A stretch of 64,000 nucleotides of DNA from Planctomycetota bacterium. GTDB lineage: Bacteria > Planctomycetota > UBA1135. Shown piece by piece: positions 18,754 through 25,258 of this stretch; within the stretch, counting starts at the first letter, position 1, and the number at the start of each line of letters is the position of its first letter. The notes beneath the pieces are model-generated. The model saw only the letters and a list, made by a program, of their open reading frames with translations. It was not told the DNA's origin and made no database searches. The translations under genes and the position numbers were made by a program. The stretch lies in contig QQUA01000004.1 of assembly GCA_008501825.1 (NCBI GenBank), positions 248,001 through 312,000 on the forward strand, in the 5' to 3' direction.

Positions 18754-21030
18754 ATGTCCGGCTCCCTTCAAGCCGCCTTGTTTTGGGCCTTCCTCCTGCT
18801 GTCGAGTTCGAATTTCACCGTCGAGGCAGCTAGTCAGCAAGGGGAACCAAGCTCGAAAGCGCCGTCCCAAGATCCGATCCTGAATCGGTACTGTTTGGAA
18901 TGCCATTCCGGGGACAAGCCGAAAGCCGGCCTGGATCTTTCCCAAGGCATTCCCAACGCCGCTCCGGATTCAGAATTTGCCGAGATCTGGCGGGAACGAA
19001 TCGGTTTAAGAGAGATGCCGCCTGCCGCTTATGCTCAGCCCACCGAGGCGGAGCGGCAAACTCTACTGGCCTGGTTTAGCCATGCTGACAAAAATGCCGA
19101 ACTTGCCGATCCCGGCCCTCCGGTGCTACGGCGATTGAACAATGCGGAGTATCGCAACGCGGTCCGGGACATATTTCGAGTCGACTTTCCGGCCCATGAA
19201 TTTTTTCCTCCGGATGCAGTCGGTTTTGGATTCGACACCGTAGCGGAAAGCCAAAGTCTTTCCGATTTGGCCTTGGAAAGATACTTGGAAGCGGCCGAAC
19301 AAATCGTTGCCACCGCCTTCGTATTGGAAGATCCGAACCGCCCTGCGGTCCGCTCCTTTGAGCCGGAAGACTTTAGCGGTAGTGGACAAATCCGCCGTTT
19401 CGGACTTCATTTCACTACCCGGGGAAGCGCCCACCTGAAGTACGAATTTCCAAGAGCCGGAGATTACCTTTTTCGGGTTCAGGCTTCCGGAGATCAAGCT
19501 GGCCCGGATCCATGTTTCATGGACCTTCATTTGGACGGCCAAAGACTGCATCGATTCGAAGTACGCCAAAATCGAGATCAACCGGAGTGGTTTAGCCTGC
19601 GTCAAAAAGTTGAGGGCGGCCGACGCCGCCTCAGTCTTTCTTTCGTCAACGACTACTACCATCCCGATCATCCGGATCGAAGTCAGCGAGATCGCAACCT
19701 ATGGATTCAAAGGGTGGAAATCGTCGGCCCCATCGACCCAATTCCCCAAACTTCTTTCCAAACCCAACTCTTCCAGACTTTCGGGCCCGAACTCAAAGGA
19801 AAGCGCAAGCGAGCGATTCTTCGTCATTTGGCAGAAAGAGCTTGGCGCCGGCCGGTAACCACTCCAGAAGTTGCCCGCCTTGAACAATTGGCACCGAGAG
19901 ATGTCGATTTCACCAACAGCATCGCCCTGGCCTGCCAGGCTATCTTGATCTCTCCGCATTTTCTGTTTCGATTGGAGTCGGACCCGGTGGATTCCGAAGA
20001 GATTCGGCAATTAAACGGCTATGAAATGGCCTCTCGCCTGTCCTTTTTCCTTTGGTCAACCACGCCTGACCCACAACTTCATCAAGCCGCGGCTGCTGGG
20101 GAACTACAAACCGAAGCCGGCCTCCGAAAGCAAGTGCAACGCATGCTGCTCCATCCGAAGTCACGGGAGTTGGCCCGCAACTTCGGGTCCCAGTGGTTGC
20201 AACTTCGAAGCCTGGAGCACAAAGAGGTCGACCCAGATCTCTTTCCGGAGTTTGACCAAACCTTGCGCCAGGCGATGGTGGAGGAAAGCTTGACCTTGTT
20301 CGAAGTCATCATCCGATCCAGACGAAACGTATATGAGTTGCTTGATGCGGATTACACTTATGTCAACGAAGCCCTGGCTTCTTTATATGGAATGCCCGAA
20401 GTCAAGGGAACACAAATGCGAAGGGTCAGCTTGAAAGATCAACCTCGCCGCGGCCTTTTGACCCACGCGGGAATTTTGACTTTGACTTCTCAGCCAAATC
20501 GCACCTCACCGGTGAAGAGAGGTCTATGGGTGCTGGATAACTTGCTGGGCACCCCTCCTCCCCCTCCGCCGCCGAATACGCCGGCTTTGGATGAGGGAGA
20601 TAGCGTGATCCAGGCGGCTTCTTTGCGGGAAAGACTTGCCCAACATCGACAGGATCCGGCCTGCGCCGCATGTCACGACAGCATGGATCCGCTCGGTTTG
20701 GGATTGGAAAACTTCGATCCGCTTGGGCGCTGGCGCGATCAAGATGGATCTCACCCAATCGACGCTTCCGGCGAACTCCCGGATGGCCGCCGCTTCCAAG
20801 GTCCTTTGGATTTGATCGCTATATTGCAACGGGATCCTGCCTTTTTACATTGCTTGACCGAAAAGCTGTACGTCTATGCCCTGGGCCGGGGAGTACAAGC
20901 CAGTGACGGGCCGATCTTGGATCAAATCCTGGCCGGACTGAATCCCCAAAAACCGACTTTTGCGGATATGGTGGAAGGAATCATTCTGTCCCCGGCCTTT
21001 CGCTTCCGCCGGGTGGAGCAAAGACCATGA
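18754..21030 (+). CDS. Secreted DUF1592-family protein with two CXXCH haem motifs
   Basis: 758 residues from the ATG at 18754 (the frame also opens with TTG at 18748). After a signal peptide comes a cytochrome-like CLECH at 47-51, then in family order a DUF1587 block (LRRLNNAEYRNAVRDIF), DUF1595 (LRHLAERAWRRPVTTPE), DUF1592 (LNGYEMASRLSFFLWST), DUF1588 with GLLTHAGILTLTSQPNRTSPVKRG and a second CAACH, and DUF1585 at the end. Such proteins are plentiful in Planctomycetota and are thought to be periplasmic; their reaction is not established. Two c-type haems are likely. The stop overlaps the DUF1552 start (ATGA), which fits the usual cotranscribed pair. Confidence 0.9.
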   Translation: MSGSLQAALFWAFLLLSSSNFTVEAASQQGEPSSKAPSQDPILNRYCLECHSGDKPKAGLDLSQGIPNAAPDSEFAEIWRERIGLREMPPAAYAQPTEAERQTLLAWFSHADKNAELADPGPPVLRRLNNAEYRNAVRDIFRVDFPAHEFFPPDAVGFGFDTVAESQSLSDLALERYLEAAEQIVATAFVLEDPNRPAVRSFEPEDFSGSGQIRRFGLHFTTRGSAHLKYEFPRAGDYLFRVQASGDQAGPDPCFMDLHLDGQRLHRFEVRQNRDQPEWFSLRQKVEGGRRRLSLSFVNDYYHPDHPDRSQRDRNLWIQRVEIVGPIDPIPQTSFQTQLFQTFGPELKGKRKRAILRHLAERAWRRPVTTPEVARLEQLAPRDVDFTNSIALACQAILISPHFLFRLESDPVDSEEIRQLNGYEMASRLSFFLWSTTPDPQLHQAAAAGELQTEAGLRKQVQRMLLHPKSRELARNFGSQWLQLRSLEHKEVDPDLFPEFDQTLRQAMVEESLTLFEVIIRSRRNVYELLDADYTYVNEALASLYGMPEVKGTQMRRVSLKDQPRRGLLTHAGILTLTSQPNRTSPVKRGLWVLDNLLGTPPPPPPPNTPALDEGDSVIQAASLRERLAQHRQDPACAACHDSMDPLGLGLENFDPLGRWRDQDGSHPIDASGELPDGRRFQGPLDLIAILQRDPAFLHCLTEKLYVYALGRGVQASDGPILDQILAGLNPQKPTFADMVEGIILSPAFRFRRVEQRP

Positions 21031-22382
21031 AGCCGAAAGTCCTGAGCCGTCGCACTGTTCTTCGAGGTTTCGGAACCGCCTTGGCTTTGCCGTTTTTGGA
21101 CGCCATGTTGCCTGCGGCCGGGAGTATGCGGCCTGCGGCAAAAACCCGCCGCTTACTTTATCTCTACGTCCCAAATGGCATTCACATGCCGGCTTGGACT
21201 CCGTCGGAGCTGGGTTCTTCCTTTGCTTTGCCCCCTCTGCTGCAACCGCTTTCTCCCTTCCGCAACAAGTTTTCCGTACTCAGCGGTTTGACTCACGACA
21301 AAGCGCGGGCCAACGGCGACGGCCCCGGAGACCACGCCCGGGCAGCTGCCGTGTTTTTGACCGGCATTCAACCTTTAAAAACCGAGGGCAAGGTCCGCCT
21401 CGGCCGTTCCGCCGACCAAGTTGTAGCCGTCCAAATCGGCGATCGCACCCGCTTCCGCTCCTTGCAATTGGGCTGCGAACCTGGAATTTTGGCTGGACAA
21501 TGCGATTCCGGTTATGCCTGTGCCTACTCCGGGCACATTTCCTGGTTTTCCGAAACCACTCCGGCCAGTAAAGAAACCCATCCCCGTAAAATCTTCGATC
21601 GCCTGTTTCGCGGCGGCCAAGATGCGGAAGCTTGGGCGGCTCAAGCAGAGCGCCGTCAGCGGAGAAGAAGCCTGCTGGATTATGTCCACGAAGAAGCCGG
21701 CCGCTTGCGCCGGCAACTCGGCCACGAAGATCGCCGCAAAATGGAAGAGTATTTGGAAGGGGTCCGCGAATTGGAACGGCGGATGGATTTCGCCGATCGC
21801 GAACTCGCCGAAGCCGTGGGAGAAGAACACCGGCCCTCGGGGATTCCGGTTAAGTTCGGCGATTATCTGGAAACGATGGCCGATTTATTGGTTTTGGCCT
21901 TGCGCAGTGACGCTACCCGGGTAGCCACTTGGATGTTCGCCAACGAAGGAAGCAATCGAACCTATCCTGAACTCGACATTCGAGACGGCCATCACAGCCT
22001 CAGCCATCACGGAAAAGACAAAGAAAAGCAGGCCAAGATCCAGCGTATCAACCAACTTCACTTGGAAAAATTCGCCTACTTCCTCGCCGCGATGGAAGCG
22101 GCAAAGGATTCCCAAGGAAGTCTGCTGGATCAAAGCATGATCGTATTCGGTAGCGCCATTGCCGATGGAAACCGCCATAACCACGATAATCTTCCGGTTT
22201 TGTTGGCCGGCGGTGGCTGCGGTTCGTTTCAGCACGGCCGTCACCTGCGTTTTCCGAAGGAAACGCCGTTGAATAATTTGCACATGAGTTTGCTGGAGGC
22301 TATGGGGGTTCCTCAGGAGGAGTTTGGAGATGGGAAGGGCCCCCTCCTGAAACTGGCACAAAGCATTGGAGGTAATTTTTAA
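21027..22382 (+). CDS. Tat-exported DUF1552 protein, last codons supplied by an insertion sequence
   Basis: 451 residues. The N-terminus carries a twin-arginine signal (SRRTVLRGFGTALALPFLDAM). The rest is DUF1552-like: LYLYVPNGIHMPAWTP, LSGLTHDKARANGDGPGDHARA, QLGCEP, and near the end PLNNLHMSLLEAMGVPQEEFGDG. These proteins are encoded with DUF1592 proteins and share the unexplained alkaline-phosphatase-like or DUF1501-like setting. The reading frame crosses into the left inverted repeat of the IS at 22349, so roughly the last 11 residues (ending KLAQSIGGNF) and the TAA come from the element. Relatives normally end shortly after the FGDxxG motif, so the protein probably still folds. ATGA overlap with the DUF1592 gene. 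Confidence 0.88.
   Translation: MKPKVLSRRTVLRGFGTALALPFLDAMLPAAGSMRPAAKTRRLLYLYVPNGIHMPAWTPSELGSSFALPPLLQPLSPFRNKFSVLSGLTHDKARANGDGPGDHARAAAVFLTGIQPLKTEGKVRLGRSADQVVAVQIGDRTRFRSLQLGCEPGILAGQCDSGYACAYSGHISWFSETTPASKETHPRKIFDRLFRGGQDAEAWAAQAERRQRRRSLLDYVHEEAGRLRRQLGHEDRRKMEEYLEGVRELERRMDFADRELAEAVGEEHRPSGIPVKFGDYLETMADLLVLALRSDATRVATWMFANEGSNRTYPELDIRDGHHSLSHHGKDKEKQAKIQRINQLHLEKFAYFLAAMEAAKDSQGSLLDQSMIVFGSAIADGNRHNHDNLPVLLAGGGCGSFQHGRHLRFPKETPLNNLHMSLLEAMGVPQEEFGDGKGPLLKLAQSIGGNF
22349..22374. repeat. Left terminal inverted repeat of the IS
   Basis: Begins GAAACTGGCACAAA and ends ATTGGAGGTA. It is read as coding DNA by the DUF1552 frame. It pairs with 23462-23487 except for two central bases. 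Confidence 0.88.
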
Positions 22383-22453
22383 GCCTCCGGCGTAACCAAA
22401 GCCGCCTCAAGCCGTCTGCCTAGCCGAACCCTTTTCTTTCGGAGGCACCGGCG

Positions 22454-23473
22454 ATGCCGCGTTTTCAACCCCCGCACTGCCCCTGGGACGCCTGTCCCAG
22501 CCGCACCGATTCCGTCCCCTTCCGCTTTCAAAAACGAGGCTTCTACAGCGGCCGCCAGCAACGCAGAATCCAGCGCTTTTGGTGCCACGGCTGCCGCCGT
22601 TCCTTCTCGTCGCAAAGCTTCAAGTTCCACTATCGCCTGAAGTACGGCCGGCTCCATCTCGACTTCTGGCCGCTGGTGGTGAGCAAAGTCACCCTGCGAC
22701 AAAGCGCTCGCATGCTGGGAGTGGATCGCCGCACCTTGGCCGACCGCCTGTTGCGCATGGGCGAACACGCTCGCCGCTTCCATCGCTTGCGATTACAGGA
22801 GGTGGCCGCTCGAGGCGGGCTGCCGGGAGTGTTTCAACTGGATGAGTTGGAAACCTTCGAAACCGACCGCAGACTGCAGCCGGTGACCGTTCCGGTGCTG
22901 ATCCACCGTGCCAAGTATTTCGTCGTTCACCTGACCGCCGGCACCTTGCCCTGCCGGGGATCGCTCCCTCCACGGTTACAAAAGAAGAAGGAGGAACGGG
23001 AGAAACTGTTCGGCAAGAGACGCTCGCAGTCGCGGCAAGGAGTGGAAGCATGCTTGCAGGCTTTGAAGGAGGTCTTGCCTCCAAGGCAGCCGGCGGTACT
23101 ACAAAGCGATCGCAAGAAGATCTATCCCAGCGTCTTGAAATCGGTGTTTGGAGCGGCAGGTTTCCAGCACCTGCAGGAGTGCTCCAAGCGCAAGCGGGAT
23201 CGAGGCAACCCGCTGTTTCCGATCAACCACACCCTGGCCCAGATGCGGGACAACCTCTCCCGGCTGGTGCGTCGCAACTGGGGCCACTCCAAGAAGCGGA
23301 GTTGGCTGCGGCTGCACATGTGGCTGTGGCTTTTGTGGCGCAACTACGTGCGGCCGATCACCGCCGAGGGCGAGCCCCCGACTCCGGGGATGTTGCTGGG
23401 GGTGACCTCTCGGCGTTGGACCGCCAGGGAACTGTTTCGGTGGAGGATCTTTTCTTCCTCCTACCTCCAATAG
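22454..23473 (+). CDS. IS transposase with zinc ribbon and DDE-like core
   Basis: 339 residues. The N-terminal zinc ribbon has CPWDAC (9-14) and CHGC about 30 residues later; a helix-turn-helix follows (VTLRQSARMLGVDRRTLADRLLRMG). The catalytic-type region has FQLDELETFE, matching the first Asp of IS1-like transposases, and LQSDRKKIYPSVLKSVFG with a second Asp. A C-terminal stretch INHTLAQMRDNLSRLVRRNWGHSKK precedes an aromatic helix. GGAGG lies 8 nt before the ATG. The stop is inside the right inverted repeat. The frame is intact, so the element may be active. The third catalytic residue was not assigned with certainty. Confidence 0.8.
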   Translation: MPRFQPPHCPWDACPSRTDSVPFRFQKRGFYSGRQQRRIQRFWCHGCRRSFSSQSFKFHYRLKYGRLHLDFWPLVVSKVTLRQSARMLGVDRRTLADRLLRMGEHARRFHRLRLQEVAARGGLPGVFQLDELETFETDRRLQPVTVPVLIHRAKYFVVHLTAGTLPCRGSLPPRLQKKKEEREKLFGKRRSQSRQGVEACLQALKEVLPPRQPAVLQSDRKKIYPSVLKSVFGAAGFQHLQECSKRKRDRGNPLFPINHTLAQMRDNLSRLVRRNWGHSKKRSWLRLHMWLWLLWRNYVRPITAEGEPPTPGMLLGVTSRRWTARELFRWRIFSSSYLQ

Positions 23474-23487
23474 TTTGTGCCAGTTTC
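23462..23487. repeat. Right terminal inverted repeat of the IS
   Basis: Begins TACCTCCAAT and ends TTTGTGCCAGTTTC, the reverse complement of the left repeat with two differences. The transposase stop codon TAG is at 23471-23473 inside it. Confidence 0.88.
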
Positions 23488-23575
23488 GGGGAAATCGCTA
23501 TTGTTAGCGAATTCTGCGCCTTCCCACCCCCATTGAGGAAGGGCACCCAAGTTTTTCCCCGCCGCCGCAGCCGTC

Positions 23576-25258
23576 ATGCCCAAGCTCATCGAGTGTGTTC
23601 CCAATTTCAGCGAAGGTCGAGACCTTGCGGTCATCCGGCAGATTACCGATCAGATCGAGACCGTCGACGGAGTCAAGTTACTGGACGTAGACCCCGGGGC
23701 AGCGACCAACCGAACGGTGGTCACCTTCGTCGGTGAACCGGAGGCGGTGATCGAAGCCGCAGTCCGGGCCGGACGGAAGGCGGCGGACCTTATCGACATG
23801 AGCAAGCATCAGGGCGAGCATCCGCGGTTTGGTGCCATGGATGTTTGCCCGCTGGTGCCCATTGCCGGGATCACCATGGAAGAAACCGTTCAATATGCCC
23901 ATCAGTTGGCCAAACGCTTGGGAGAAGAGGTCGGTTTGACCATTTTCTGTTACGAGTTTGCTGCAACCAAACCGGAACGGAGCAACTTGGCCACGGTTCG
24001 GGCCGGTGAATACGAGGCCTTGCCGGACCGCTTGAAGGACCCCCAGTGGCAGCCGGACTTTGGACCGGCGGAGTTTCAAGCCAGGACCGGGGCTACGGCA
24101 GTCGGAGCCCGAAACTTTTTGGTGGCCTTCAACATAAACCTGAACACCACTTCCACCCGGCGAGCCAACGCGGTGGCGTTCGACGTCCGGGAACGTGGCC
24201 GCATCAAGCGCGAAGGCCACCCCTTGCTTGGTCCCAAGGTCACCGATGAAAACGGCAAGACGGTTTGGATACCAGGCTCTTTGAAGTGCGTGAAAGGCAT
24301 CGGCTGGTTCATCGAAGAATATGGCATTTGCCAAGTCTCCATGAACCTGACCGACATCAGCGTGACTTCGGTCCACGAAGCCTTTGATGAAACGAGTCGA
24401 AAAGCGGAAGCCCGAGGCATTCGGGTGACCGGTTCCGAGCTGGTGGGCCTGATTCCACTGCAAGCCATGTTGGACGCCGGCCGGTATTTCCTCCGCAAAC
24501 AAAAACGCTCTACCGGTGTTTCCGATCACGAACTCATCAAGATTGCGATCCGCTCCATGGGTTTGGACGAATTGAAGCCGTTCAAGCCGGAGGAAAAAAT
24601 TATTGAGTACATGATCGACGAAACCGCCGGCCGCCGGCTGGTGGACTTTTCCATTCGCGGCTTCGTGGAAGAAACCGCCTCGGAATCCAAAGCCCCTGGA
24701 GGCGGCTCGGTCGCCGCGACCTTAGGAGCCTTGGGCGCCGCCTTGGCCGCCATGGTGGCCAACCTTTCCAGCCACAAACGGGGCTGGGACGAGCGTTGGG
24801 AAGGTTACAGCGATTGGGCAGAGAAGGGAAAGGCCTGCTACCAAACTTTGCTGCGATTGGTAGACGAAGACACGGCCGCGTTCAACGCCATCGTCGATTC
24901 TTGGAAGCTACCTGACGCCACCGAGGCGGAAAAAGCTGCGAAAGAGGCCACCGTGCAAGCCGCAGTCCAGCGGGCTATCGAGGTCCCCTTCGAGGTCATG
25001 CAAGTCGCCTTGGAAAGTATGGAGGTGGCGGAAGCCATGGCGGAAACCGGCTTGGAGGCTTCCGTCTCCGATGCTGGAGTAGCCGCCCTGTGCGCCCGCA
25101 GTGCAGTCATGGGAGCTTACTTGAACGTTCGCATCAACGCCGGCGACTTGCAGGATGAAACGCTGCGAAACCAATTCTTGCAGCAGGGAGCCGACCTCCA
25201 GGCACAAGCTCAAGAACGGGAACAACGCATCCTGTCCTTGGTCGAAGGCAAGCTTTAA
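23576..25258 (+). CDS. ftcD: Glutamate formimidoyltransferase / formimidoyl-THF cyclodeaminase, bifunctional
   Basis: 560 residues, both enzyme halves fused as in animal FTCD. The transferase part (about 1-325) has VPNFSEGR (8-15), GEHPRFGAMDVCPL with the catalytic His82, and FNINLNT. The cyclodeaminase part (about 340-560) has SESKAPGGGSVAAT, the four-helix segment with LVDEDTAAF (acidic catalytic residue near 430-432) and SVSDAGVAALCARSA. It moves the formimino group from N-formiminoglutamate to tetrahydrofolate and releases ammonia to give methenyl-THF, closing histidine degradation. No hut genes lie next to it. It begins 88 bp after the IS right end, so its promoter region is partly IS-adjacent. 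Confidence 0.95.
   Translation: MPKLIECVPNFSEGRDLAVIRQITDQIETVDGVKLLDVDPGAATNRTVVTFVGEPEAVIEAAVRAGRKAADLIDMSKHQGEHPRFGAMDVCPLVPIAGITMEETVQYAHQLAKRLGEEVGLTIFCYEFAATKPERSNLATVRAGEYEALPDRLKDPQWQPDFGPAEFQARTGATAVGARNFLVAFNINLNTTSTRRANAVAFDVRERGRIKREGHPLLGPKVTDENGKTVWIPGSLKCVKGIGWFIEEYGICQVSMNLTDISVTSVHEAFDETSRKAEARGIRVTGSELVGLIPLQAMLDAGRYFLRKQKRSTGVSDHELIKIAIRSMGLDELKPFKPEEKIIEYMIDETAGRRLVDFSIRGFVEETASESKAPGGGSVAATLGALGAALAAMVANLSSHKRGWDERWEGYSDWAEKGKACYQTLLRLVDEDTAAFNAIVDSWKLPDATEAEKAAKEATVQAAVQRAIEVPFEVMQVALESMEVAEAMAETGLEASVSDAGVAALCARSAVMGAYLNVRINAGDLQDETLRNQFLQQGADLQAQAQEREQRILSLVEGKL

Follow-up and report, generated by a model that had tools for sequence, protein, structure and literature searches.

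The insertion sequence (IS) found at positions 22,349 to 23,487 of the window (the whole stretch of 64,000 nucleotides that was analysed) is probably one copy of a distinct, IS1-related IS family that is carried by Planctomycetota and takes the 3' ends of genes as its insertion sites. The initial annotation had proposed that an IS captured the 3' end of a DUF1552 gene in this region and supplied its stop codon. A real, multicopy IS does end the DUF1552 frame, but the event is no one-off: most copies of the family are found at a terminator, inside a stop codon or no more than 4 bp away from one, and thus the capture in the window represents the normal target choice of the family.

The window copy lies on the plus strand, spans 1139 bp, and belongs to a set of 18 full-length elements that share 96-98% identity. 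Its 26-bp terminal inverted repeats include: (i) the left repeat (22,349 to 22,374, plus strand; GAAACTGGCACAAAGCATTGGAGGTA), which begins with GA, and (ii) the right repeat (23,462 to 23,487, minus strand), the reverse complement of GAAACTGGCACAAACTATTGGAGGTA, which is identical to the left repeat at 24 of 26 positions. These positions and this degree of match are as first annotated. The element carries a single uninterrupted ORF (22,454 to 23,473, plus strand) for a transposase of 339 amino acids, which has a zinc/HTH N-terminus and a predicted RNase-H-fold catalytic domain and whose stop codon falls within the right terminal repeat. The host part of the DUF1552 (HXXSHH) gene (21,027 to 22,348, plus strand; Pfam PF07586) abuts the left end. 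On the other side, a spacer of 88 bp (23,488 to 23,575) leads to the downstream neighbour ftcD (glutamate formimidoyltransferase/cyclodeaminase; 23,576 to 25,258, plus strand), the start of which maps to 23,576, at the distance originally given.

The DUF1552 ORF (21,027 to 22,382; PF07586, E = 6e-98) crosses into the element, and the reading frame at the boundary is CT|G AAA CTG GCA CAA AGC ATT GGA GGT AAT TTT TAA. The element-encoded end of the frame (22,349 to 22,382, plus strand) consists of the third base of a Leu codon, the ten residues KLAQSIGGNF and a TAA at 22,380 to 22,382, in keeping with the ~11 residues and stop codon that the initial annotation had assigned to the IS. The junction sits directly past the conserved FGDxxxPL motif, and homologues stop 1-6 codons further on, which bears out the suggestion that the insertion fell just past the conserved end of the family. 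Among the DUF1552 homologues in related genomes, the C-termini read LGDGTAPLSGL, FGDATGLLQLQG, FGDSTGRLPELG, LGDGRAPLF and FGDASTPLLKLRQT; the KLAQSIGGNF ending is absent from every homologue listed, so the IS reading survives this comparison. Copies L004 and L015 give the identical KLAQSIGGNF tail, followed by a stop, to two unrelated genes, and therefore the tail belongs to the element and did not arise by chance. Judging from the homologues, the DUF1552 gene probably used to end about 1-6 codons from the junction, and the insertion thus appears to have struck the natural end of the gene. When the window flanks are joined without the element, the next stop is met 49 bp on. Orthologues in the relatives searched are at most 62% identical, and none of those genomes is from the same genus.

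The host genome (G000) is a 5.7-Mb metagenome assembly that is 84% complete. A search for further copies, which the initial annotation had called for, found about a dozen partial copies besides the 18 full-length elements. Three relatives (L091-L093) have 68-72% amino-acid identity, and a second subfamily at 57-59% includes 12 full-length copies (L094-L105) plus the truncated L106. The family has at least 33 copies in G000. Terminal inverted repeats, one transposase and several copies at different sites are all present, as in an autonomous IS, and the near-identical copies at different sites suggest that the element is mobile. Partial copies are often found at contig ends. As many G000 contig ends (e.g., those of C3, C5, C7, C9, C10, C11, C15, C16, C21, C22, C25 and C26) lie inside IS copies, the true copy number is probably higher.

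For each flank of every copy, ORF and codon scores were used to identify the gene that points at the element, and the end of its stop codon was then measured from the element boundary. The gene calls are the authors' own ORF scoring on a metagenome assembly and not curated annotation. The stop range, defined as stop codon ends at -4 to +2 of the boundary (7 bp), was fixed on G000 before other species were considered. It is occupied in 35 of the 54 G000 flanks with a scoreable gene; 25 of 33 G000 copies have at least one flank in the range and 8 are outside it. Only three G000 flanks lie outside the range yet within 12 bp (at -12, -9 and +8). For many copies that separate convergent genes, both stops fall at the boundary, as exemplified by L003, L007, L008, L009, L091, L102, L103 and L105.

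The element termini begin with GA, or with AG or AA in relatives, and thus an insertion that splits a stop codon restores one (T|GA, TA|G). A host T joined to the element GA forms the stop in nine flanks, as well as in both flanks of L091, while in further flanks a host TA is completed by an element G or A. The original stops were deduced from joined flanks and protein ends. The joined flanks of L007 and L091 each form an overlapping convergent CT^AG stop in which each TAG is split, and both genes regain a stop as TGA; these two joined sites are natural with no duplication involved. Such overlapping convergent stops, which have no spacer at all, are hit repeatedly (L007 and L091, and also L005 and L010). 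At L002, L006, L014 and L016, joining the flanks restores no natural stop: the frame continues over a further 49 to 155 codons, although each protein seems complete where it meets the element. Here the insertion probably had a different partner flank at first, and some flanks have probably been rearranged.

Copies in other genomes were found by profile search and are mostly from Planctomycetota. The stop range is occupied in 27 of the 36 other-species copies with a scoreable gene. These copies include those of the isolate genome Pla86 (L183, +2/+2; L191, -1/+2) and of Pla163 (L187), where the termini start with AG and the stop is of the form T|AG. Few copies are found outside Planctomycetota; those in the stop range include the more distant L197 of Acidobacteria and L228 of an unclassified bacterium, the latter with a stop completed by the element (TA|A).

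Controls place these counts against several backgrounds. When junctions were moved 20-300 bp outward, 6.2% of flanks and 9.4% of copies were in the stop range. Across 400 kb of G000, the stop range accounts for 4.6% of non-coding positions, for 15.1% of those up to 100 bp past a stop and for 18.5% of those in convergent spacers, and the count in the host genome has a P of ~1e-12 or less under each of these three nulls. In E. coli MG1655, none of 20 IS copies (IS1, IS2, IS3, IS4, IS5, IS30 and IS186, taken from annotated regions; 11 flanks with a scoreable gene) is in the stop range. A second multicopy IS family that could serve as an internal control was not found in G000 with PF01609 (one match), PF00665 (one match), PF02371 or PF01797 (zero each). 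The control and null outcomes make random insertion with ordinary selection unlikely. This explanation, in which elements insert anywhere and purifying selection leaves the harmless copies at gene ends, is considered improbable: it fits a dense genome (90% coding) and the lack of any clear gene-interior disruption among the 33 G000 copies, but non-coding DNA and long spacers are far bigger targets than a 7-bp stop range, the spacerless convergent stops were struck more than once, and the E. coli elements, which are likewise under selection, have no copy in the range. A single accident, in which an ordinary IS fell at the end of DUF1552 and happened to give it a stop, agrees with the local anatomy and is nevertheless scarcely credible, as most of the other copies, both in G000 and in further species, have the same outcome.

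A further explanation is that the transposase targets a short palindromic motif, with a YTAR core and C-rich and G-rich arms, and that selection keeps the harmless insertions, which happen to be at stop codons. On either side, the flanks of the window subfamily do have G at -11/-10 and C from -9 to -6, which amounts to about 3 bits per half-site, and YTAR is within 8 bp of 17 of the 33 joined sites compared to 4.7% at random. Against this explanation, the motif as a PWM does not account for the whole pattern, as its best 50-2000 positions (in 400 kb) are in stop ranges at the background rate of 0.5%. Similarly, a mere 4.8% of YTARs are in contact with a stop. Of the YTAR centres that would be non-disruptive, 21% fall in the stop range, compared to 25 of the 33 IS copies (P = 8e-12 for p = 0.2). 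The motif-based explanation is therefore regarded as unlikely, although less so than random insertion. Because the motif fails to predict gene ends, something beyond this local sequence marks them.

Copies that are away from stop codons provide a hint of what this mark may be. Four of them (L098, L100, L104 and L156) adjoin strong hairpins typical of intrinsic terminators. The hairpins end 6 and 7 nt before the boundary on the two sides of L104, 7 nt before the left boundary of L100, 7 nt (left) and 1 nt (right) before the boundaries of L098, and 4 and 7 nt before those of L156, which is the same copy as L110 and is from another genus (G001). Hairpins of this type are absent at some other far-from-stop flanks (L015 right, L164 and L186). 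The shared feature, based on these few sites, may be the end of the transcription unit. No target duplication of 2-20 bp was detected in the 18 copies, as paired flanks are no more alike than mixed pairs; the lone flank similarity is at L003, with an 8/9 match.

The most far-reaching reading, given roughly even chances, is that a one-gene transposon actively finds gene ends by way of the termination machinery or the DNA state, inserts without duplication, and has termini that rebuild stops, such that the host is spared independently of any one target sequence. In the preferred explanation, the transposase or its complex would be led to gene ends by a feature linked to the termination of translation or transcription, with the terminating complex, the transcript 3' end and the DNA state between convergent genes as candidate guides; GGCCCC-N5|N5-GGGGCC would be weakly preferred in addition. 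An element that enters a stop codon behind its T or TA makes a new stop with its own terminus. If it lands a few codons early, the gene ends after a short tail at a stop inside the terminal repeat. The window copy would have landed slightly too early in this way, with the stop of its left repeat as the rescue. Because the tips often rebuild the stop signal, the element could spread without breaking genes. Selection may sharpen the stop-codon pattern, and genomes alone separate active targeting, which the distribution of copies suggests, from strong selection incompletely.

The transposase is a single ORF of 333-342 amino acids in the other complete copies of G000. An alignment of 20 members reveals invariant D130 (within DE-E--E), D219 and N258, and a nearly invariant D266. 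By position and fold, D130 (codon 22,841 to 22,843, plus strand) and D219 (codon 23,108 to 23,110, plus strand) are candidates for the first and second catalytic Asp residues. The predicted model (pLDDT 85) has low TM-scores to Mos1 and the retroviral integrases and suggests an RNase-H/DDE fold for the catalytic domain. No Pfam transposase family matches the window protein at E 0.001, and across the 20 members the matches at this threshold, among 25 of 29 families listed, are to small HTH models alone. Solved structures searched by sequence include no useful relative. The NCBIfam model transpos_IS1 matches 19 of 20 members weakly, with a best E of 3.6e-10 that is below the curated cut-off. The N-terminal zinc/HTH part aligns to E. 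coli InsA (hhalign probability 94, E = 1e-7); the catalytic part has no profile match to E. coli InsB. The zinc domain shared by IS1 and IS1595 is present in 6 of 20 members, and the IS1595-type DDE domain (PF12762) is found in none of the 20 at E 0.1, among 25 of 29 families listed. The DDE_Tnp_1 domain (PF01609) of IS5/IS870 has no match in the window protein, nor in the members among 25 of 29 families listed.

Several known systems resemble this family in part. Tn7 also uses a safe site just past the 3' end of a gene, attTn7, where a dedicated protein recognises one gene, glmS, and insertion generates a 5-bp duplication. By contrast, the present IS is found at many unrelated genes and encodes one protein. 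Group IIC introns and the IS elements that target REP/BIME sequences prefer terminators or palindromic repeats and thus share the use of gene-terminal landmarks; a minority of the copies described here adjoin terminator hairpins, whereas most are set by the stop codon, within about 7 bp. IS870 of the IS5 family, in work attributed to Fournier et al. in 1993 and cited in PMC6471742, reportedly needs a CTAG target to provide the stop codon of its own ORF. Similarly, target and element jointly form a stop in the present family, and YTAR/CTAG-like targets are frequent. The roles are reversed, however, as the target completes the element's own gene in IS870 and the element completes host genes here, and the CTAG duplication of IS5/IS870 has no counterpart in the 18 copies analysed.

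The closest likeness is to IS1, a short element with terminal inverted repeats whose InsA protein has a zinc-finger and HTH N-terminus, each of which has a counterpart in the present IS. IS1 is 768 bp, compared to 1139 bp for the window copy, and produces InsA and InsAB' from the insA/insB pair through -1 frameshifting, whereas the present element has one 339-residue ORF. IS1 generates an 8-9 bp target duplication (PMC12428005), which is not evident in the 18 copies analysed here, and gene-end targeting further sets the present IS apart. Thus, as frameshifting and target duplication were both looked for and neither was found, the transposase is termed IS1-related and not a member of IS1.

The literature searched, which represents part of the published papers, held no description of an IS that targets stop codons. 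To our knowledge, the gene-sparing transposons described to date depend on recognition of one given gene, of a tRNA, of a repeat or of a guide RNA. If the reading is correct, a small IS directed to stop codons, whatever the gene, would give selfish elements a new route to avoid harm. It would raise the directly testable question of how a transposase senses where a gene ends, and in practice the enzyme could serve to insert DNA downstream of genes while leaving them intact. Automatic annotation will mis-end host genes beside these elements.

A number of structural variants are noted within the family. L106 and L107 (G000:C22) are internally deleted to about 0.95 kb with intact ends and are possible non-autonomous forms. 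In L013, L016, L094, L095, L097, L101, L102, L105 and L106, one of the two terminal repeats, never both, has another base in place of its outermost G; strand-transfer chemistry or a circular intermediate may have left this trace. A recoded stop was considered for the second subfamily on the basis of an apparent internal TAA and was dismissed, as the frame ends normally ~30 bp short of the right end, and it was the match that had overrun the stop. Distant relatives (L220-L229, 27-30% identity) occur in assemblies of Oligoflexaceae, Melainabacteria/Cyanobacteria, Lacunisphaera and Bdellovibrionales. In L108, L116, L118, L119, L120, L125 and L126, the transposase ORF meets no stop within the element and exits via the right repeat into the flank. 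Readthrough relatives of the L108 type are from G001, G002, G011, G013, G015 and G021, and the transposase of L108 itself ends at the first host codon, a TAG.
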